A stretch of 64,000 bases of DNA, taken from positions 186,001 through 250,000 of the forward strand of contig NZ_JAFEUU010000005.1 of NCBI RefSeq assembly GCF_017355885.1, read 5' to 3'. A model generated the notes under the pieces. That model made no database searches, was not told where the DNA came from, and saw only the letters and a program-made list of their open reading frames with translations. The position numbers and the translations under genes were made by a program. Shown piece by piece: positions 28,410 to 37,106 of this stretch; within the stretch, counting starts at the first letter, position 1, and each line of letters begins with the position of its first letter. The DNA comes from Sabulicella rubraurantiaca. GTDB taxonomy: Bacteria > Pseudomonadota > Alphaproteobacteria > Acetobacterales > Acetobacteraceae.

Positions 28410-30773
28410 TTGCCAGACCAGGGTGACACGACGTGTATGTCGCGCGCGCCCCGGCTGGCCGGACGTGGCTTCATCGGGCGCGTCCATGTCGAGGCGGTGC
28501 TTCATGCCTCCGCCGATGAGCGCTTCCACCTCCTTCGTGTTTCGGGCGAGGCGCTGCGGGGTCTTGGCGTAGGAGCCCTCCCGCTGCGCTGCCGCCATGG
28601 CGCCGGTTCCGGTGTCGCGCCGGGCATGGCGCTGGATGTCGAGGGGAGCTTTGTCGAGGGTCGGGACCGCATGCTGCTGCACGCCGAGGTGGTGCGGCGC
28701 GTGCCAGTGGAAGAGACGTTCGGGCTGGAGGCCTGGCTACGCTCCGCAGGCATAGAAGGGGTGGGGCGGCGCCGGGCTGCCAGCATCGCCGCCGCGCTCG
28801 GCCCGGGATGGCAGGAAGGGATGCGCGATCCGCGCCGGCTTGCCGCGGTCAAGGGCATCTCCTGCGCGGTGGCGGAGCGGATCAGCACCCATTGGCAGGA
28901 GGATCTGCGCCGGAACGAGGCGCAGGCGCGGCTGCTCGGCATCGGGCTCTCCCCCTCGCAGGCCCGTGCCTTCGCCGCCCGCCATGGCGGGGCCGAGGCG
29001 CTTCGCGTCCTTGAGGAAGACCCCTGGCGCGCCTGCCGCGACGTGGCGGGCATCGGATTCGAGACCGCGGACCGCATGGCCCGCGCGTTGGGCTTCGCCG
29101 TGGACGACCCGCGCCGCCTCGGCGCCGGATGCGTCGCAGCCGCGGAGGCGGCGTTGGGGGCCTCGGGCGGCACCCGCATCAGCGAGATGGATCTGGTCGC
29201 CGAGGCATCGCGTCTGCTCGCCGTCGCGCCGGAGGTGGTGGCAGAGGCCCTGCAGGACGTGCTGGACCTGCCCGGCCCGCCGCTCGGCGTGTGTCCGGAA
29301 ACGGGGCATATCGGGTTGCGGCGGCTGGAGGAGCGGGAGTTGCAGGTGGCGCGCCACCTCCGGCGCCTGGCACGCGGGACAGGGCTGATGGCGCGGGAGG
29401 CGGCAGAGGCGGAGATCGCCCGCGCCGAGGCCGAGACGGGCATTCGCCTGGACCGCGATGCCGGGCAGTTTGACGCCGCCGCCTCCGCCCTGTCACACGG
29501 CGTCTCAGTCATCACCGGTGGTCCGGGCACGGGCAAGACAACGGTGTTGCGCGTCATCGTCCGCGCCGTGGTCAACGCGCTGCGCCTTCCCCCCGACCAT
29601 TATGGCATCACCCTCGCGGCGCCGACCGGGCGCGCCGCACGGCAGCTGCGCGACGCCACGGGGCGGCGTGCGGCGACGCTGCACCAGGCGCTGCGCCTCG
29701 GCATGGGGCGGGGCGGGCGCGTCTATCACGCCGACAATCCACTGCCTTCCGACTTCGTCATCGTGGACGAGACATCCATGCTGGATCTGGAGATGGCGGA
29801 TCGCCTCCTCCGGGCCGTGGCGAGCGGCGCGTCGCTGCTGCTGGTGGGGGATGCGGACCAGCTCCCCCCGGTCGGCCCCGGGCAAGTCCTGCGCGACGTG
29901 ATCGAGAGCGGCGCGGTGCCAGTGACCCGCCTTACCCGCGTGCGCCGCACGGCCGAGGGGGTGGAGATCCCTCTTGCCACCGCCCGCATCCGCGAGGGGC
30001 TGCATCCGGTGCCCGAGGGCCGGACCTTGCTGGGGGTGCACCTGATCGAGACCGCGGATGGACGCGTCGTCGAGCGGGTGCGGCAGCTGATGGAGGGGCG
30101 CATCGCCACGCTGGGCCTCGACCCGGCGACGGAGGTGCAGATCCTGGCCGCGCGGCGCCACGGTTCCTGTGGTGTGGTCGCCCTGAACGAGGCGGTGAAG
30201 CGCATCCTGGTCCCGGATCGTGCCGGGGAACTGACGGTGGGCGGCACGGGTTTCGCGCCGGGCGACCGCGTCATGGCGATCCGCAACGATCCGCGCGTCG
30301 ATGTGAGCAATGGCGACATCGGCACGGTGGAGGCGGTGTCGGAGGGGGGTGTCTCCGTCCTTTTCCCAGGCCGGCCCGACGCCGTGTTCTTCCTGCGCGA
30401 GGAAGCGGAACACCTGATCCACGCCCGCGCGGCGACCATCCACAAGAGCCAGGGCTCGGAGTTCGAGGGCGTCGTCGTGGTAGCGGCGGAGGAGCATGGG
30501 CGGATGCTCGACCGCAACCTGCTCTACACGGCCGTCTCGCGGGCGCGGAAGGCAGTGGTGATCGTGGGGCCGCGTTCCGCCGTGCTACGCGCGGTGGGGA
30601 CCGAAGGCGCGACCCGGAACACCGGGCTGCGGCGATTGCTTCAACTCGAGGCGCGGGAACTGGAACAGCACCATCGATTTCTGCTGCCCGCCTCCCCATC
30701 TCTGGCATGGCGCCGCGCCGGAAAGGACGCGCCGAGTATTCCTTCCTCCAATGTAAGGCTTGAGGGGATCTGA
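28410..30773 (+). CDS. recD2: RecD2-type ATP-dependent DNA helicase
   Basis: 787 residues from TTG 28410, which has GGAGG at proper spacing; ATG 28437 is the alternative and loses nine residues. The N-terminal OB-like part and helix-hairpin-helix repeats (VGRRRAASIAAALG; VAGIGFETADRMARALGF) are characteristic of RecD2 rather than RecBCD RecD. SF1B motifs: Walker A GGPGTGKTT (Lys376), APTGRAARQL, Walker B VIVDETSMLD, GDADQLPPVG and C-terminal THIHKSQGSEFEGV-like (ATIHKSQGSEFEGV) and YTAVSRARKAV. It is a 5'-3' helicase acting in repair without RecB/RecC. It is the first rightward gene of the repair island. Confidence 0.92.
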   Translation: MPDQGDTTCMSRAPRLAGRGFIGRVHVEAVLHASADERFHLLRVSGEALRGLGVGALPLRCRHGAGSGVAPGMALDVEGSFVEGRDRMLLHAEVVRRVPVEETFGLEAWLRSAGIEGVGRRRAASIAAALGPGWQEGMRDPRRLAAVKGISCAVAERISTHWQEDLRRNEAQARLLGIGLSPSQARAFAARHGGAEALRVLEEDPWRACRDVAGIGFETADRMARALGFAVDDPRRLGAGCVAAAEAALGASGGTRISEMDLVAEASRLLAVAPEVVAEALQDVLDLPGPPLGVCPETGHIGLRRLEERELQVARHLRRLARGTGLMAREAAEAEIARAEAETGIRLDRDAGQFDAAASALSHGVSVITGGPGTGKTTVLRVIVRAVVNALRLPPDHYGITLAAPTGRAARQLRDATGRRAATLHQALRLGMGRGGRVYHADNPLPSDFVIVDETSMLDLEMADRLLRAVASGASLLLVGDADQLPPVGPGQVLRDVIESGAVPVTRLTRVRRTAEGVEIPLATARIREGLHPVPEGRTLLGVHLIETADGRVVERVRQLMEGRIATLGLDPATEVQILAARRHGSCGVVALNEAVKRILVPDRAGELTVGGTGFAPGDRVMAIRNDPRVDVSNGDIGTVEAVSEGGVSVLFPGRPDAVFFLREEAEHLIHARAATIHKSQGSEFEGVVVVAAEEHGRMLDRNLLYTAVSRARKAVVIVGPRSAVLRAVGTEGATRNTGLRRLLQLEARELEQHHRFLLPASPSLAWRRAGKDAPSIPSSNVRLEGI

Positions 30774-31017: not shown

Positions 31018-31818
31018 GTGCCCATCGATCCCAAGGCCGACACGATGCTCCTCTGGTCTCGCGAGGAGCCGACCGACCCGAAATACACCAAGCCCTTCAC
31101 CCGTTCCGGCGGCTTCCGCGGCACGGCCATCAACGCGACCTATGTCCGCAAGCGTCTGACCCATGCCTTCGGCCCGGTCGGCCTGGGCTGGGGCGTGGAG
31201 GTGCTGGCGGATGACGTGGTGCCCGGCGCGCCGGTCATCGACGGTTCCGGCCGCGTCCTGGGCCAGGAGAGCGTGCAGCGCATGCGCATCCGCTTCTGGT
31301 ACCACCCCGCCGGCTGCCGGCAGGGCGAAGATGGCGCGCTGGTGCCTGTCGGCCCGCGCGCCCAGTCCGAGCAGGTCGGGCAGACCACCTACGTCTCCTG
31401 GCGCCGCGGCAAGAACGGCGAGGCCGGTCGCTTCGAGACCGACGAGGAGGCGTGGAAGAAGTCGCTGACCGACGCGCTGACCAAGGCGGCGTCCGAGGTC
31501 GGGATCGGCGCCGACGTCCATCTCGGCCGCTTCGACGACGTGAAGTATGTCGAGGCCCGCAACCAGGATGCGGAGGCCGAGCAGGTCGCTGCCGAGGGCG
31601 CGGCGCGCATGGGTGACCTGCAGGAGGCCCGCGACAACGCGACCGGCCTGCTGGAGCGGCTGGAAGCCGTGACGGATGGCGAGGGCTACAACAGCGCGAT
31701 GGCGGCGGCGCTCAAGCTGCGCCCGTCCCTGCTGCGCCTGGGCCTGCGCGAGGAAATCGACGCCCTGCGGGCGGCGATGGAGAAGGCAAAGCGCCGCGTC
31801 GCCAAGGCCGCGGCCTGA
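31018..31818 (+). CDS. Rad52-like single-strand annealing protein candidate
   Basis: 266 residues from GTG 31018 with AGAGAGGAAGG upstream. The N-terminal domain has the pattern FTRSGGFRGTAINATYVRKRLTHAFGPVGLGWGVEV, then GQTTYVSWRR and a conserved helix EEAWKKSLTDALTKAASEVGIGADVHLGRFDD. This pattern is known to me from phage and plasmid proteins of the Rad52/Rad22 type (beta-sheet core then a lysine-rich helix that binds ssDNA). The last ~70 residues are an alanine-rich helical tail. A role in annealing ssDNA during break repair is inferred. It begins a tightly spaced five-gene operon and lies downstream of an SOS box. A structure-based search is needed because Rad52 homologues diverge strongly. 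Confidence 0.6.
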   Translation: MPIDPKADTMLLWSREEPTDPKYTKPFTRSGGFRGTAINATYVRKRLTHAFGPVGLGWGVEVLADDVVPGAPVIDGSGRVLGQESVQRMRIRFWYHPAGCRQGEDGALVPVGPRAQSEQVGQTTYVSWRRGKNGEAGRFETDEEAWKKSLTDALTKAASEVGIGADVHLGRFDDVKYVEARNQDAEAEQVAAEGAARMGDLQEARDNATGLLERLEAVTDGEGYNSAMAAALKLRPSLLRLGLREEIDALRAAMEKAKRRVAKAAA

Positions 31819-31829
31819 GGAAGCAGACC

Positions 31830-32450
31830 ATGGACCAGATGTCCCGCACCCAGGACCTCACCTTCGCGCCGGATCGCCCGGTGCTGGTGAAGCCCCTGCG
31901 CGCCAGCCGCGAAGCCGTCGAGGCGGCGGCGGACGCGCTGGGCGCGCGGCTGGGCTTCGCGCCGGGGGAAAAGCTGGAGGAGGCGGTCGCGCGCCTTGGC
32001 GGCCGCATCCACCGTGGCGGGCCAAATCTCTGGTTCCGCAACCAGCGCCTGTCCTTCCTCGCCGATGCGCCGGACCGCTTCGAACTGCACCTGCTGGGCA
32101 TCGCGACGCCGGCCCGCGCGCGGCTCGACCTTGCGCATGAGCTGGGGCACTTCGTGCTGCACGATCTGGCGCTGCGACGCGAGCATGGTGAGGGCATCCG
32201 CACGGCCGCCCCATCCATGGTCAGCCCGCACGACGCGGAGGGGCAGCGCGCCGATCTGGAGGCCTTCTGGTTCGCGCATCAGATCCTCATGCCCGCGGCT
32301 GCGTTCCGCGAGGCCTGGGCCGATGGTGCGCGTGACATCTCGGCAGAGGACCGGCTGCACCGCATGGCCACGCGCTTCGGCGTGCCGATGCGGAGCGCGG
32401 AGGTGCGCGCCGAGTTCCTGGGCCTGGAGACGAGCCAGCAGGCCGCCTAG
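31830..32450 (+). CDS. ImmA/IrrE family metallopeptidase
   Basis: 206 residues, GAGGAAG ribosome site. The zinc motif HELGH (His103, Glu104, His107) is in DLAHELGHFVLHD, preceded by a strand-rich region (LWFRNQRLSFLADAPDRFELHLLGIATPARAR) and followed by a helix with EAFWFAHQILMPAAAF, the usual third part of the ImmA/IrrE (DUF955) fold. Family members cleave XRE-family repressors: IrrE cuts DdrO in Deinococcus, ImmA cuts ImmR in ICEBs1. An XRE protein is encoded at the end of this locus on the opposite strand, a natural candidate substrate. Confidence 0.88.
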   Translation: MDQMSRTQDLTFAPDRPVLVKPLRASREAVEAAADALGARLGFAPGEKLEEAVARLGGRIHRGGPNLWFRNQRLSFLADAPDRFELHLLGIATPARARLDLAHELGHFVLHDLALRREHGEGIRTAAPSMVSPHDAEGQRADLEAFWFAHQILMPAAAFREAWADGARDISAEDRLHRMATRFGVPMRSAEVRAEFLGLETSQQAA

Positions 32451-32480: not shown

Positions 32481-32798
32481 ATGCCCGGTCCGCGAAGCAA
32501 GCCCGAAGCCGAGGACGGCCACGCCGCGCGCCTGGCCGCGCTGGCCGACCGGCTGCGCCGCGCCCAGGCGGCGGAGATCCGCCTGGACGAGAAGCTGCGC
32601 CAGCTGCAGGCCGAGCAGGAGGAAAATCGCCGCCGCGCCCGCGAGGAGTTCGGCACGGACGATCCCGACGAGTTACGCCACATCGCCGAGGCGCGGCGGG
32701 CCGAGGCAGACTCCATGCTGCGCGAGCTTGAGGCCGCGCTTGACGCCGCGGAGGAAGCGATCGCCCAGGCCACACCCGACGGGGCGGCGCCGCGCTGA
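32481..32798 (+). CDS. Small coiled-coil protein coupled to the Rad50-like gene
   Basis: 105 residues, ribosome site GGGAG, stop overlapping the next start (TGATG). Apart from short ends, the chain is one long amphipathic helix (about residues 14-97), rich in Glu, Arg and Ala with heptad-like hydrophobic spacing (LAALADRLRRAQAAEIRLDE). No cysteine is present. Its tight coupling to an SbcC-like ATPase whose N-terminal coil is short suggests it could supply part of the missing antiparallel coiled-coil strand. That is inference. Confidence 0.7.
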   Translation: MPGPRSKPEAEDGHAARLAALADRLRRAQAAEIRLDEKLRQLQAEQEENRRRAREEFGTDDPDELRHIAEARRAEADSMLRELEAALDAAEEAIAQATPDGAAPR

Positions 32799-34717
32799 TG
32801 CGCGCCGGCCAGGCCGAGCCCCTGCTGCGCCGCCTCGACGAGGTCCGGCGCGGCTTCGCTGTCCTCGAAGGGCGGCGCGATGCCGTCGCGCGCCGTGCCG
32901 CGACGCTGCGCGAGAAGGTCGCCGCCGCCAAGGGGCGGCTCGAAGCCAAGCCCGAGGTGGATGCGCTGCTGGAGGAGATGCAGGAGGCGGGGCATCGCCG
33001 CACCCTCGGCTCCTACGAGGCGATGCTCTCGGCCATCGCGCAGGATGTGCTGGGGCCGGGCATCGCCATCCGCCTTTCCCTGAGCACGGAACGCGGCCTG
33101 CCGAGCCTGGATATCGAGGCGGAGCAGGATGGGGCGCGCTGCTCCGTGCTGGATGGCTGTGGCGGTTCGCTGAACAACGTGGTCAGCGCCGGGCTGCGCG
33201 CTATTGCCACCATGAAGTCAGGGCTGCGGCCCTTCCTGGCGCTGGACGAGGCCGATTGCTGGATCCGCCCCGGCCGCGTCCATCTCTTCTGCCACGTGCT
33301 GCGCCGCCTGTCCGAACGCATCGGCATGCAGACGCTCGCCGTGAGCCACCATGACGTGTCGAGCCTGGGCGGCGCCATCGCCATCGTCGGGCTGGAGGCG
33401 CGGCGGGATGGCGTCGCGGCGGTCGTCCAGGCCGAGGGTCCGGCCTGGCCGGACGAAGCGACGCGCGGCATCCGTTCCATCCGCCTGGTGAATTTCGGCT
33501 CCATCCGCGACGCCACGATCCCGCTTGGCCCAGGCGTCACCGCCATCACGGGCGAGAACAACATCGGCAAGAGCCGCTTCATCCGCGCGCTGCGCTGCGT
33601 CTTCTATGGTGGGCCGGAAGGCGGGGACGGCGACATCCGCCACGGTCAGAAGCAAGCGGAGGTGGAGATCGCGCTGGAGCATGGGCGGCGCCTGCTCTGG
33701 TCGCGCCGGCCGGGCCGCAATCCGGTGACGCTGTGGACGCTGTTCGAGCGCGACGGCAGCGTGGCGGAGTGGAAGGGGGGCGCCTGCCGCACGGGCGGAC
33801 GCCTGCCGCCAGATTGGCTACGCGAGGCGCTGGGCTTCGGCCGCGTGGATGAGATGGACTTGCAGGTGTCACGTCAGGCAGCCCCGGTCTTCCTGCTGGG
33901 GGAGACGCCGTCGCGGCGCGCCTCCATCCTCTCTCTGGGGCGGGAGAGCGGCTATTTGCGTGGCATGATCGAGCGTCACCGGCAGAATTGCGGTGAGGAT
34001 TCCGCGCTGGTCCGCCAGGGCGAGGCGGAGCTTGCGGCGCTGGAGCGCGAGGCGGCGCTGTTGGATGCCGTTCTGTCGAGCCGACCGGATCTGGGTTCAC
34101 TGCGGCAAATCGCGGAAGGCGCCGACGCCCTGGCGCGCGAAGCCGATGCCATCGCCGCGAAGGCGGAAGCGACGGAGGCGCGCGAGGGGGAGATTTCCGC
34201 CGCCAGCGCCGCGCTGGGCAGCATGGTGGAACACCTGCGCACGGCGGAAGCCAAGCCTGCGGGCGCCGGCGCGGCGCTGGCCGCCGCCAAAACGGCGCAG
34301 GGCCTCTCCGCACGGATCGCCCTCGCCACGAAGGGCGAAGCGTCGCTTTCCGCAGCCGTGGCGGCCTGCGCGCTGTTGCCGGCCGACGCGCCCGCGCTTC
34401 CCGACGCAGCTTCGGCCCTTGCAGCCGAGGCGGCGCTGCGGCGCGCGGAGGCGCGGATGCTGGGCATCGAGCAGGCGCGGGTCGCGCTGCGACCGCTTCC
34501 GCCTACCTTGCCCGTTCCGCCCAATGCAAAGGGCGCCGAGGCGATGGCGGCGCTGCTGACGCAGGGAATGGAGGAAGCACACGCCACGGGAGTGGCGCTG
34601 CGCGAGGCCGCTTCTGCCGTCGCCACGCTGGAACGGGAACGCGAAGAGGCGCTGGCGGAGATGGATGTGTGCCCTGTCTGCGGCGGCGGATTGCTGGCCA
34701 TGGCGGGGGCGGCATGA
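32798..34717 (+). CDS. SbcC/Rad50-like ATPase with circularly permuted lobes
   Basis: 639 residues. Order of motifs: short coiled coil (1-65); signature-like GCGGSLNNVVSAGL (120-133); Walker B FLALDEAD (146-153); H-loop AVSHHD (181-186); then Walker A GENNIGKS (252-259) in IRLVNFGSIRDATIPLGPGVTAITGE; Q-loop region DLQVSRQAAPVFLLGE (about 354-369); a long coiled coil (about 400-620); and a zinc-hook CPVC (625-628) near the C-terminus. Normal Rad50/SbcC runs Walker A, coil, CPVC hook, coil, signature, Walker B. Here the C-lobe comes first and the N-lobe second, as if the chain were opened at the hook. The start overlaps the small coiled-coil gene and the stop overlaps the Mre11-like gene (ATGA), so all are co-translated. 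It should work with that nuclease on DNA ends. Confidence 0.85.
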   Translation: MRAGQAEPLLRRLDEVRRGFAVLEGRRDAVARRAATLREKVAAAKGRLEAKPEVDALLEEMQEAGHRRTLGSYEAMLSAIAQDVLGPGIAIRLSLSTERGLPSLDIEAEQDGARCSVLDGCGGSLNNVVSAGLRAIATMKSGLRPFLALDEADCWIRPGRVHLFCHVLRRLSERIGMQTLAVSHHDVSSLGGAIAIVGLEARRDGVAAVVQAEGPAWPDEATRGIRSIRLVNFGSIRDATIPLGPGVTAITGENNIGKSRFIRALRCVFYGGPEGGDGDIRHGQKQAEVEIALEHGRRLLWSRRPGRNPVTLWTLFERDGSVAEWKGGACRTGGRLPPDWLREALGFGRVDEMDLQVSRQAAPVFLLGETPSRRASILSLGRESGYLRGMIERHRQNCGEDSALVRQGEAELAALEREAALLDAVLSSRPDLGSLRQIAEGADALAREADAIAAKAEATEAREGEISAASAALGSMVEHLRTAEAKPAGAGAALAAAKTAQGLSARIALATKGEASLSAAVAACALLPADAPALPDAASALAAEAALRRAEARMLGIEQARVALRPLPPTLPVPPNAKGAEAMAALLTQGMEEAHATGVALREAASAVATLEREREEALAEMDVCPVCGGGLLAMAGAA

Positions 34718-35715
34718 GCGGCTTTCCTGTCGTCCCCGCGCGCGGCGTGCTGTTCATCGGCGACGTGCATCTCTGGTCGCGGCGGCCCGGGCGGCGGCTG
34801 GATGAGGATTTCGCGGCCTGCGTTCTGGAGAAGCTGCGCTTCGCGCTGGACGCCGCGTCGTCGCGCGACCTCCTGCCCGTTTTCCTCGGCGACATGTTCC
34901 ACGCGGCGCGCGAGGCGGATGACGGGCTGAAGGCGCGGCTGCTGCGCCTGCTGCTGGCGCAGCCGCGCCGGGCCTGGAGCAATGTCGGCAACCACGACGT
35001 CTCGGGGCTTGCGCTGGCGGAGAGCGACAGCCTGTCGCTGCTGCTCGCGGCGGGGGCGCTGCATGCAGTGCCGCAGGGTGGCGCCGGCGTCATCGTGGAA
35101 GGCGAGGGGAGGCGCGTTGGTATCGGCTTCACGCCGCATGGGGTGGAAATCCCGGATTGTGTCGCTGGGGCCTTTGGCGATGCGGCGCCGGATGCGACGG
35201 TCTGGGTCACGCATCACGATCTGGCCTTCAACGGGCGCTATCCGGGCAGCACGGCGCTGAAGCCGATTGCGGGCTGTCGCCTCGCGCTCAACGGGCACAT
35301 GCATGTCGGATGCGCTCCGGTGGAAATGGGCGAGACCACCTGGATGAACCCGGGCGCGCTGACGCGCATCAGCGTCACCGAGGCCGTGCATGCGCCTTGC
35401 GTCTGGGAGTTGCGCTTCAGCGATTGGGGACTGCGGCGCATCGAGGTACCGCATCGGCGCGATGTCTTCGACCTGACGGGACGGCTGGTGCAGCCGGAGG
35501 CGCCGCGCCGCGACGCGGAAGAGGGCGATGCCTTCGACAGCGCCTTCGCCGCGCTGCTGGAAAGCAGCATGATGGATCCGGTGGCGGCGGATGACGGCGC
35601 CTTCCTGCGCGAGATGATTGAGGCGCGGCTTGCGGCGGGCGACGTGTCCCCCACGGCGCGGCGCATCGTGCTCGGGCTGCTGGAGGATGCGGCGGGGCGC
35701 GGCGCCTCGGGCTAG
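34714..35715 (+). CDS. Mre11/SbcD-like metallophosphoesterase
   Basis: 333 residues from ATG 34714, overlapping the Rad50-like stop. All calcineurin-like phosphoesterase motifs are present: GDVH (Asp17, His19), GD at 59-60, GNHD (92-95), THHD (His167, His168) and GHMH (194-197). A C-terminal extension of about 90 residues (from about 240) could be the cap or ATPase-binding region, as in Mre11/SbcD. Together with the neighbouring permuted Rad50-like ATPase it should form a DNA-end nuclease. The stop shares CTAG with the convergent XRE gene. Confidence 0.87.
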   Translation: MSGFPVVPARGVLFIGDVHLWSRRPGRRLDEDFAACVLEKLRFALDAASSRDLLPVFLGDMFHAAREADDGLKARLLRLLLAQPRRAWSNVGNHDVSGLALAESDSLSLLLAAGALHAVPQGGAGVIVEGEGRRVGIGFTPHGVEIPDCVAGAFGDAAPDATVWVTHHDLAFNGRYPGSTALKPIAGCRLALNGHMHVGCAPVEMGETTWMNPGALTRISVTEAVHAPCVWELRFSDWGLRRIEVPHRRDVFDLTGRLVQPEAPRRDAEEGDAFDSAFAALLESSMMDPVAADDGAFLREMIEARLAAGDVSPTARRIVLGLLEDAAGRGASG

Positions 35716-36500
35716 GCGTCGTTGTCGGCGTGCTGCGGGCGGGTGCCGCGTGCGATGCCGACCTCGCCCGGGCGCAGCGCCTCGAAAGGCATGGCGAGCA
35801 GGGCCAGGTCGCGCGGAAGGAAGCCCAGCATCTCGCCGGTTCGGGCGTCCAGCGCCGTTAGCCGCGACAGCGGGCCCAGCGCGTCCATATCCAGCGCCGC
35901 CATGATCCCCTGGTTGCGGCAGGCTTCGAGTTCCTCACCCTCCTCCGTGTCCTCGATGTCGGAGTCATCGGGCTCAGGGGTGAAGAGCAGGGGGAGCGGG
36001 TCTTCCGCGAGGTGGACCAGCGCCTGGCCGGGCGGAAGGCCGCCATGCGGCGCGGCATCGCTGGCCGTGCCGGAAAGGAGGCGCCACAGGCTGACCTGAT
36101 CGGGGCGCAGCGCGACCTCGTGCGTCGCGCTTGCGAAGACGAGGAAGCGGCCCTCCTCGGCTGGGACGCGCAGCGTGTCACGCACGCGGTCCAGTTCCGG
36201 CGGCGCCAGGATGATGCGCATGGCGGCACCGCCGCGCAGGGAAAGGCTGAGCGTCCAGACGCGCCCGGTAGCATCGGCAGCCTGGGGCTGTCGTGGCACG
36301 CCGATTTCGGGAGGAGAGGGAAAAACCTCGTCCAGCGCGCGGCCGAGCGAGGCGGCGATGCGCATGGCGAGGCCGATGCGCGGTGCCTGTGCGCCGCACT
36401 CGATACGCTGGATCTGCTGCTGGCTGGTGCGTGCACGGCTTGCGAGGTCGCGCTGGCTCCATCCCAGTCGCTTACGCCATGCCTGCACCCGGTTCGCCAT
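35712..36500 (-). CDS. XRE-family transcriptional regulator with large C-terminal domain
   Basis: 262 residues from ATG 36500 (GGGAGGATTC ribosome site; an ATG five codons upstream is less well placed). Helix-turn-helix at residues 1-60: VQAWRKRLGWSQRDLASRARTSQQQIQRIE. The remaining ~190 residues are unassigned, with an acidic run (DDSDIEDTEEGEELE) in the middle that looks flexible. A perfect inverted repeat lies just upstream of the gene, consistent with autoregulation. Because an ImmA/IrrE protease is encoded in the facing operon, this protein may be a repressor inactivated by cleavage, with the acidic linker a plausible cut region. Confidence 0.82.
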   Translation of the reverse strand: MANRVQAWRKRLGWSQRDLASRARTSQQQIQRIECGAQAPRIGLAMRIAASLGRALDEVFPSPPEIGVPRQPQAADATGRVWTLSLSLRGGAAMRIILAPPELDRVRDTLRVPAEEGRFLVFASATHEVALRPDQVSLWRLLSGTASDAAPHGGLPPGQALVHLAEDPLPLLFTPEPDDSDIEDTEEGEELEACRNQGIMAALDMDALGPLSRLTALDARTGEMLGFLPRDLALLAMPFEALRPGEVGIARGTRPQHADNDA

Positions 36501-36510
36501 GAATCCTCCC

Positions 36511-36526
36511 GACACGAATCCGTGTC
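36511..36526. promoter_or_regulatory. Inverted repeat, candidate XRE operator
   Basis: A perfect GACACG-AATC-CGTGTC palindrome located 11 bases upstream of the XRE start codon, in the leader of that gene. Position and symmetry fit an autoregulatory operator. No second copy was found by eye in front of the repair operon at 31 kb. Confidence 0.5.
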
Positions 36527-36614: not shown

Positions 36615-37106
36615 TCAGAAAGGCACGTCATCCGCCGCGTCCCACGCGCCGCGTGGTGCGCGGCGCGATGCCGCGGCGCGTGCGCGCGGCTTGGCGGCTG
36701 GTGCCGACTCGACCGGAGAAGGCGCCTCCTCTTCCACCTCGCGCGATTCGTCCGCGTTGCCGCGCCCCCCGACGAGGGTGAGTTCGCCGCGGAAGTTCCG
36801 CAGCACGATCTCGGTGGTGTAGCGCTCCTGGCCGGACTGGTCCTGCCACTTGCGCGTCTCGAGCTGGCCCTCGAGGTAGACCTCGCTGCCCTTGCGCAGA
36901 TACCGCTCGGCAATCTCGCCCAGCTTCTCGTTGAAGATCGCCACCGAGTGCCATTCGGTGCGCTCCTGCTGCTGGCCCTCGCGGTCCTTGTAGCGCTCCG
37001 ACGTCGCCACTCGCAGGTTCACCACCTTGCCGCCATTCTGGAAGTTCCGAACCTCGGGGTCCTTCCCGAGACGACCCAGAATCAGCGCTTTGTTCATACC
37101 CGCCAT
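36615..37106 (-). CDS. ssb: Single-stranded DNA-binding protein
   Basis: 163 residues with an OB-fold (about 1-110: [66 protein letters not shown]), a short Pro/Ala/Arg-rich linker and the partner-binding tip DDVPF. A GAGCGAG ribosome site precedes ATG 37106. The short linker and the repair-gene setting suggest a dedicated, inducible SSB in addition to the housekeeping copy. A LexA-type box lies about 90 bases upstream and a strong terminator follows. Confidence 0.95.

Follow-up and report, generated by a model that had tools for sequence, protein, structure and literature searches.

The window, a 64,000-nucleotide stretch of the Sabulicella rubraurantiaca genome, encodes a cassette that, as judged from sequence, very probably has as its core a permuted Rad50 working with a relative of Mre11. 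The complex is homologous to Mre11–Rad50 but lacks three of its structural features, namely the lobe order, the apical hook, and the signature serine. Two observations go beyond a first-pass annotation of the same DNA: the cassette has a fourth conserved part, a short coil gene, and the operons that carry the ATPase as one fused gene or as two split genes are related by a cyclic shift.

Gene layout and motif order

The ATPase gene is one intact frame of 639 codons that runs from ATG to TGA with no internal stops (Table 1), and it accounts for the single match to this ATPase in its own genome. In canonical Rad50 and SbcC, Walker A is followed by a coil, the CPVC motif of the hook, a second coil, the signature, and Walker B. 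In the translation of the window gene, the order is signature-like motif, Walker B, H-loop, Walker A, Q-loop (with Q360 as the conserved residue), arm, and CPVC. The coordinates and motif order given in the first-pass annotation were exact when the translation was read again. An LSGGQ/E-type signature is a feature of Mre11–Rad50 (SbcCD). What had been annotated as a signature-like motif retains the GG but is not LSGGQ-like, since the serine before the GG is replaced. With the window included, 50 of the 51 fused proteins show the pattern, and 49 of these have another residue in place of the serine, so that ATP-driven head closure may differ; the serine is kept in some split phage C-halves (e.g., L080–L083 and L085).

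The coil and ATPase genes overlap by TGATG, and the ATPase and nuclease genes by ATGA. The coil gene lies directly 5' of the C-lobe in the fused and in most split cassettes. At E < 1e-8, the coil profile found 55 of 3928 plus-strand ORFs, 11 of which had been used to train it; 54 lie within 450 bases of the start of a C-lobe ORF, and the other, in L093, lies just before a C-half. Against the PDB, this profile gave no significant match (best E 0.023), so the arm role that we propose for the coil rests on gene position.

Table 1. Features of the cassette and its neighbors, in window coordinates.
Feature	Position	Strand	Size or residues	Basis
RecD2-like helicase	28410..30773	+		
Phage-type recombination protein, PHROG 7838, labelled exonuclease	31018..31818	+		
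IrrE/CapP-like metallopeptidase	31830..32450	+		
Short coiled-coil protein, motif FGTDDPDEL; proposed descending-arm segment	32481..32798	+	105 aa	
Circularly permuted Rad50-like ATPase (C-lobe :: N-lobe :: arm :: CPVC)	32798..34717	+	639 aa	
Rad50 C-lobe: short coil (helices 6–49, 51–85), signature-like motif, Walker B, H-loop	32798..33436	+	1–213	profile
Signature-like CGGSLNN, without the serine of LSGGE	33158..33178	+	121–127	
Walker B FLALDE	33233..33250	+	146–151	
H-loop SHHD	33344..33355	+	183–186	
C-lobe/N-lobe linker	33416..33475	+	about 207–226	
Rad50 N-lobe with Walker A and Q-loop	33470..33949	+	225–384	profile
Walker A GENNIGKS	33551..33574	+	252–259	
Ascending arm, 5 predicted helices separated by breaks; low confidence within 486–534	33950..34660	+	385–621	AlphaFold2
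Half zinc hook CPVC, C-terminal	34670..34681	+	625–628	
Mre11/SbcD-like phosphoesterase	34714..35715	+	333 aa	profile, fold
CapH-like HTH repressor	35712..36515	-		

Identity of the two lobes

Searches with the single sequence readily placed the N-lobe, with Pfam AAA_23 matching at residues 227–294 (E 2e-11) and the Rad50 N-terminal and related NCBIfam models at 225–301. Matches to the C-lobe were weak (PHROG 15167, E 0.0027; SMC chain 5xns over residues 30–211, E 5e-4). Pfam gave no match to the window C-lobe; over the 19 C-lobe members, it found SMC_N in 6 and SbcC_Walker_B in 1. No Rad50 or SbcC model of NCBIfam reached its full-length cut-off on the window ATPase: the best Rad50 equivalog scored 30.1 bits against a cut-off of 847, over the N-lobe only, and sbcc (TIGR00618) was absent among the 11 families listed.

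The two halves were then profiled separately. The C-lobe profile, built on an alignment of those 19 sequences (13 fused, 6 split), had Rad50 chains as its best matches (3qkr_B, E 2e-10; 1ii8_B, 6.8e-10; 1f2t_B, 5.2e-9), which bears out the proposal that residues 1–215 form a Rad50/SMC C-lobe. Rad50 also ranked on top for the N-lobe profile, built on 11 sequences (5 fused, 6 split), with 3aux_A at E 5.8e-15 and 1f2t_A at 8.7e-12. Hence, a Rad50 C-lobe at about residues 1–213 precedes an N-lobe at about 225–384, in swapped order. The proposal that the protein was opened at the hook and rejoined through the head agrees with these lobe positions and with the hook motif, which is C-terminal in every homologue read.

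A single-chain AlphaFold2 model of the ATPase, made with 30 rows and carrying no inter-domain error estimate, has a mean pLDDT of 77 and a pTM of 0.54. Foldseek against the PDB matched this model to Rad50 entries, with both lobes found as separate chains of 1f2u (A/C and B/D); such alignments are collinear, and a permuted head cannot appear whole in them.

Conservation and distribution of the fused form

Including the window, 51 fused proteins were collected, 49 of them distinct (L006 equals L045, and L013 equals L055), from Alpha-, Beta-, and Gammaproteobacteria. The search for homologues of the same order gave a uniform picture: the C-lobe precedes the N-lobe in 51 of 51, with Walker B before Walker A in each (47 by pattern, four by reading). 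Every protein has exactly one CxxC, with 10 to 61 residues following its first cysteine. In every one of the 51 loci, the ATPase is preceded by a coil-type gene, which scores E < 1e-4 in 50 of them and 0.0065 in L009. The ATPase is followed by an Mre11-type gene at a threshold of E < 0.01, with several weak matches among the gammaproteobacterial loci. Across a 29-row comparison of the ATPase, which includes six gammaproteobacterial plasmids with a degenerate nuclease, the Walker A G and K, D150, E151, H184, Q360, and both hook cysteines are invariant.

Using the window protein as tblastn query, we found 21 matches in 72,556 plasmid records, all of which cross the C-to-N junction; 11 of these loci (L002–L012) were examined in detail. 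The genome scan yielded 42 loci, comprising 38 fused and four split or partial ones (L051–L054). The fused ones are distributed over Microvirga (33) and Roseococcus, Arenibaculum, Variovorax, Novimethylophilus, and Agitococcus (1 each), and one of them (L037) lies on the chromosome of Microvirga sp. VF16, whose record is complete. The nearest relative found of the window ATPase is that of Roseococcus sp. MDT2-1-1 (L013), with 88% identity. Carriage is sparse: the fused form occurs in two of 397 sampled Pseudomonadota genomes (its own and G180; two further matches cover the Walker A region only), in one of the 150 genomes sampled from the family (its own), and in two of 21 genomes of the genus. 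For the fused protein, neither tblastn in 50,697 phage records nor a search of viral contigs gave any direct phage relative.

Split cassettes in bacteria and phages

Three bacterial loci, from a Fimbriimonadaceae MAG (L051), an unclassified bacterium (L052), and a further MAG (L054), carry consecutive genes for an N-half, an Mre11-like protein, a coil, and a C-half. Their N-half ends in a CPTCG motif, and their coil has a YGTxDxAEL-type motif. L054 and L051 are 97% identical in the C-half and 86% in the N-half. Within the phylum of L051, the split C-half is strong in 3 of 251 genomes, the other 39 matching at E 1.4e-8 or weaker. The gene order of Microcystis phage Mvi-JY20 is likewise N, nuclease, coil, C; this phage and 18 further viral loci with N, nuclease, and C in that order bear out the first-pass suggestion that some phages carry split halves.

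Scanning viral contigs with profiles of the split N- and C-halves gave 38 loci, and the viral set (L056–L096) comprises 41 loci, three of them from phage records. The following counts are not independent, since several loci represent the same element: L057 and L058 belong to a single record, L064 is seemingly the same phage, and L091 and L092 resemble each other. N-half, nuclease, and C-half occur together in 19 of the 41 loci, in this order in all 19, with a coil (E < 0.01) in 16. Within the stretch read, 11 loci have N-half and nuclease only, apart from a coil in two of them, and two have coil and C-half only. Eight loci (L068–L070, L073, L074, L077, L095, and L096) fall outside the split type. 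For the split N-halves, 33 ORFs were listed, and in each the last CxxC starts 7 to 34 residues before the C-terminus. The same scans listed seven ORFs of canonical type, in which this distance is 277 to 351 residues; the search therefore did not presuppose a terminal hook.

Two viral cassettes stand apart. L079, on an AT-rich viral contig, is a second C-then-N fusion of 660 aa that ends in CTKC. In Bacillus phage vB_BboS-125, the order is N, AP2 gene, coil, C, followed by an Mre11-like frame that is unlisted in its record, so that the nuclease comes last, unlike in other split cassettes. Phages were reached by split-half queries only; no phage record was matched by the L051 C-half or by the L079 fusion, and no viral contig by the L056 C-half.

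Origin of the permuted gene

The split operon (N, nuclease, coil, C) and the fused operon (coil, C::N, nuclease) differ by a cyclic shift. The split operon runs collinear with canonical Rad50, apart from the nuclease gene that follows the hook. Fission first and fusion later is the simpler reading, because later splitting of a fused gene would give C before N, which was never seen. For the fusion itself, the C-half gene of a split cassette would have been placed ahead of the N-half gene and then joined to it, a scenario to which we assign about an even chance; no intermediate with adjacent unfused C and then N genes was seen among the loci read. The split cassettes and the cyclic relation of the operons thus support the first-pass guess that split halves were fused in the order C-half, N-half. 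As the likely precursor, the split genes, is extant in phages and bacteria, the route from one gene to three and on to a permuted fusion is testable.

Unrooted trees were calculated on the two lobes set side by side. With all 43 rows, the backbone was without resolution. In a 40-row tree, which leaves out three long-branch rows (L056, L079, and L096), 21 proteobacterial fusions form one side of a branch with support 99/98. When L079, itself a long branch, was restored, its joining the proteobacterial fusions was weakly rejected (AU p 0.044), which makes a second origin of this viral fusion likely, albeit not firm.

The window cassette was probably acquired from a phage-like source. A flanking RND gene has relatives of 70–74% in five of the nine searched non-carrier genomes of the genus, and the upstream gene is a member of a large paralogous family; no exact empty site was established among those nine genomes.

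Nuclease partner and predicted function

The neighbor annotated as Mre11-like, whose gene overlaps the ATPase stop, is an Mre11 relative by both profile and fold. A profile of 26 sequences finds Mre11 and SbcD (4hd0_A, E 6.3e-11), and the first matches of the predicted model (pLDDT 86, pTM 0.76) are Mre11 structures. All metal-ligand positions of the window nuclease are filled (D17, H19, D60, N93, H94, D95, H167, H195, and H197). The ligands are likewise intact in Roseococcus, Microvirga, Arenibaculum, Variovorax, Novimethylophilus (with N to S at 93), Agitococcus (a gammaproteobacterial MAG), Acidiphilium, Rhizobium, and the split forms compared, position 93 varying in two viral rows.

In a comparison of 12 nucleases, six were intact (window, L003, L006, L008, L051, and L046, the last with N93 to S). 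The other six (L004, L005, and L009–L012), all from gammaproteobacterial plasmids, have lost several ligands, the most degenerate of them aligning unsurely. In these six plasmids the nuclease looks dead, which implies that end-cutting is not the function everywhere, and this clade has likely shifted to a non-nuclease role.

In both carrier genomes, a recombination module lies by the cassette, consisting of the RecD2-like helicase, the phage recombination protein (PHROG 7838, which we take to be a Rad52-like annealase), the CapP-like peptidase, the CapH-like repressor, and a second SSB. Of 33 Microvirga loci, 22 have a RecD2-like helicase close to the cassette, as have 8 of the 41 viral loci. 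Model searches of the window's own genome gave no SbcD match, and SbcC scored 22 bits, below its cut-off; the SbcC and SbcD models match 14 of 14 and 13 of 14 control genomes, exceed the cut-off in only 1 and 8 of these, and do not see divergent forms, the window cassette itself being missed. The filled ligands, the recombination genes, and the lack of an SbcD match in the own genome therefore favor DNA-end processing for recombination, together with the RecD2-like helicase, the phage recombination protein, and the extra SSB, as the likely job of the complex. DNA damage may induce the cassette by way of the CapP/CapH-like pair.

Alternatively, the complex could primarily be an SMC-like device for tethering or partitioning large replicons, with the nuclease secondary. 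Its presence on 21 of the 72,556 plasmid records would fit such a role, as would the finding that several ligands are lost in six of six gammaproteobacterial plasmid nucleases examined while the ATPase residues stay invariant. We nevertheless consider such a primary role unlikely, given the intact ligands in the window, the relatives named above, and the split forms compared, the chromosomal cassette of Microvirga sp. VF16 (L037), and the recombination genes that neighbor the cassette.

Proposed architecture of the complex

For the end-processing complex, we propose an architecture in which each of the following steps seems to us about as probable as its opposite. The two covalently tied lobes of one chain would fold as one ABC head, and two such heads would close on ATP and DNA over an Mre11 dimer. 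This dimer would be held via the nuclease C-terminal helices, which are proposed to bind the base of the Rad50 arm. At the far end, two terminal CPxC half hooks would share one zinc ion, joining the arms. The coil protein would be the missing descending strand, lying along the ascending arm and stacked on C-lobe helices 6–85. With the coil as a separate descending strand, we infer a Rad50 arm of two chains that is able to open at its tip.

The lobes could instead be domain-swapped: a short linker would hold the two lobes of one chain apart, and the C-lobe of one chain would pair with the N-lobe of another. Two chains would then make up each head, which would lock two heads as one unit. The linker of the window protein is short (about 15–20 residues), the lobes of Rad50 can do without a covalent link (1f2t A and B are separate PDB chains), and neither the single-chain model, with its pTM of 0.54, nor the collinear Foldseek alignments give intra-chain packing. 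On the other hand, the linker is clearly longer in L003 and L046, as befits a passive tether. The N- and C-termini of canonical Rad50 lie close together on the head, which also counts against a swap, and we regard it as quite unlikely.

An anti-phage or anti-plasmid defence complex is less probable still. The N-lobe does resemble the ATPases AriA, GajA, and LmuB, and CapP/CapH-like genes adjoin. However, the best 25 of 45 PADLOC matches cover the Walker A region only (within residues 223–304), like many such ABC ATPases, the PADLOC models give no nuclease match at E 0.01, and phage genomes themselves carry split relatives. Finally, an assembly or frameshift artefact joining two genes can be dismissed with near certainty, as the junction recurs in 49 distinct proteins from independent assemblies that include complete chromosome and plasmid records, and a fusion present in relatives is not a sequencing error.

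We tentatively propose, with slightly less than even confidence, a separate Mre11–Rad50 lineage. In this lineage, the arm would first have been cut at the hook into three proteins (N-half with the terminal hook, coil, and C-half), in phages and bacteria, and later rejoined through the head one or more times in Proteobacteria and possibly a second time in a phage; gammaproteobacterial plasmids would carry a nuclease-free DNA tether. Since the hook and the returning strand belong to separate chains, the tip of the arm could come apart and provide an entry gate for DNA, which the closed canonical Rad50 lacks.

Relation to known systems

Like SbcCD/Mre11–Rad50, the window system has both Rad50 lobes, a CPxC motif, and an adjacent Mre11-type nuclease with metal ligands. 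Unlike in SbcCD, the lobe order is reversed, with the C-lobe ahead of the N-lobe, and the CxxC is near the C-terminus rather than apical between two strands of one chain. The arm strand of this 639-aa protein does not return in the same chain, a separate coil gene being present, and the signature serine is absent. The split phage SbcC-type genes, exemplified by gp32 ("exonuclease") and gp35 ("ATPase") of vB_BboS-125, are homologous, with an N-half ending in CPxC, a C-half, a coil, and an Mre11-like frame; they differ from the window cassette in encoding two ATPase proteins, with the N gene first. In PHROG, the halves of the window protein hit families 16465 (labelled exonuclease) and 15167 (labelled ATPase).

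If a permuted Rad50 works with a free hook end and a separate arm strand, the closed hairpin is dispensable, which raises the question of what purpose the continuous arm and apical hook of Rad50 serve. The system would then be a natural test case for gate models of SMC-like machines. The cassette also gives an annotation to large-plasmid genes labelled AAA family ATPase, hypothetical protein, or metallophosphoesterase, and to short phage genes.

The literature searched, with partial coverage, yielded neither a natural circular permutation of a Rad50 or SMC head nor any description of a permuted or split Rad50 (passages of PMC7824862 and PMC12153180 included). Mre11/Rad50 fusion proteins have been described for Mimivirus R555 and relatives, and also for plasmids and a phage, in the part of PMC3175470 (2011) available to us, which describes no Rad50 permutation. 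As portrayed there, they share with the window a gene fusion within the Mre11–Rad50 system; unlike in the window, the nuclease is joined to the ATPase. According to the same excerpt, one P-loop segment was not observed in protein A7KV18 of Bacillus phage 0305phi8-36 (PMC3175470). This protein was the top fold match in BFVD.

Genes adjoining the cassette

The cassette is flanked by genes encoding a CapP-like peptidase and a CapH-like repressor, which suggests that it is under DNA-damage control. A second SSB gene adjoins it, and the two genomes of the genus that carry the cassette (G000 and G002) have two SSB matches each. Among the 19 noncarrier genomes of the genus, 17 have a single SSB match, one has two, of which one is a fragment, and one, an incomplete genome, has none.

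Features flanking the cassette and features of homologous loci
Feature	Location	Strand	Remark
CapP-like peptidase	window 31830-32450	+	flanks cassette
CapH-like repressor	window 35712-36515	-	flanks cassette
Second SSB gene	window 36615-37106	-	adjoins cassette
C-then-N Rad50 fusion	L079:3516-5498		viral contig; CTKC at end
Mre11-like open frame, 326 aa	L125:8232-9212		Bacillus phage vB_BboS-125

Homologous loci

The split cassette of L054, from a metagenome-assembled genome labeled Methanoregulaceae, shares 97% identity in its C-half and 86% in its N-half with the Fimbriimonadaceae cassette; hence, probably either the contig is mis-binned or the cassette is mobile. The viral fusion in L079 apparently arose independently of the other fusions, and no Mre11-like gene was found in the 11 kb of this contig that were examined. 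The Mre11-like frame of vB_BboS-125 is missing from the gene list of the phage record. In six gammaproteobacterial plasmids (L004, L005, and L009–L012), the permuted ATPase is kept despite the loss of several metal ligands from its Mre11-like partner.
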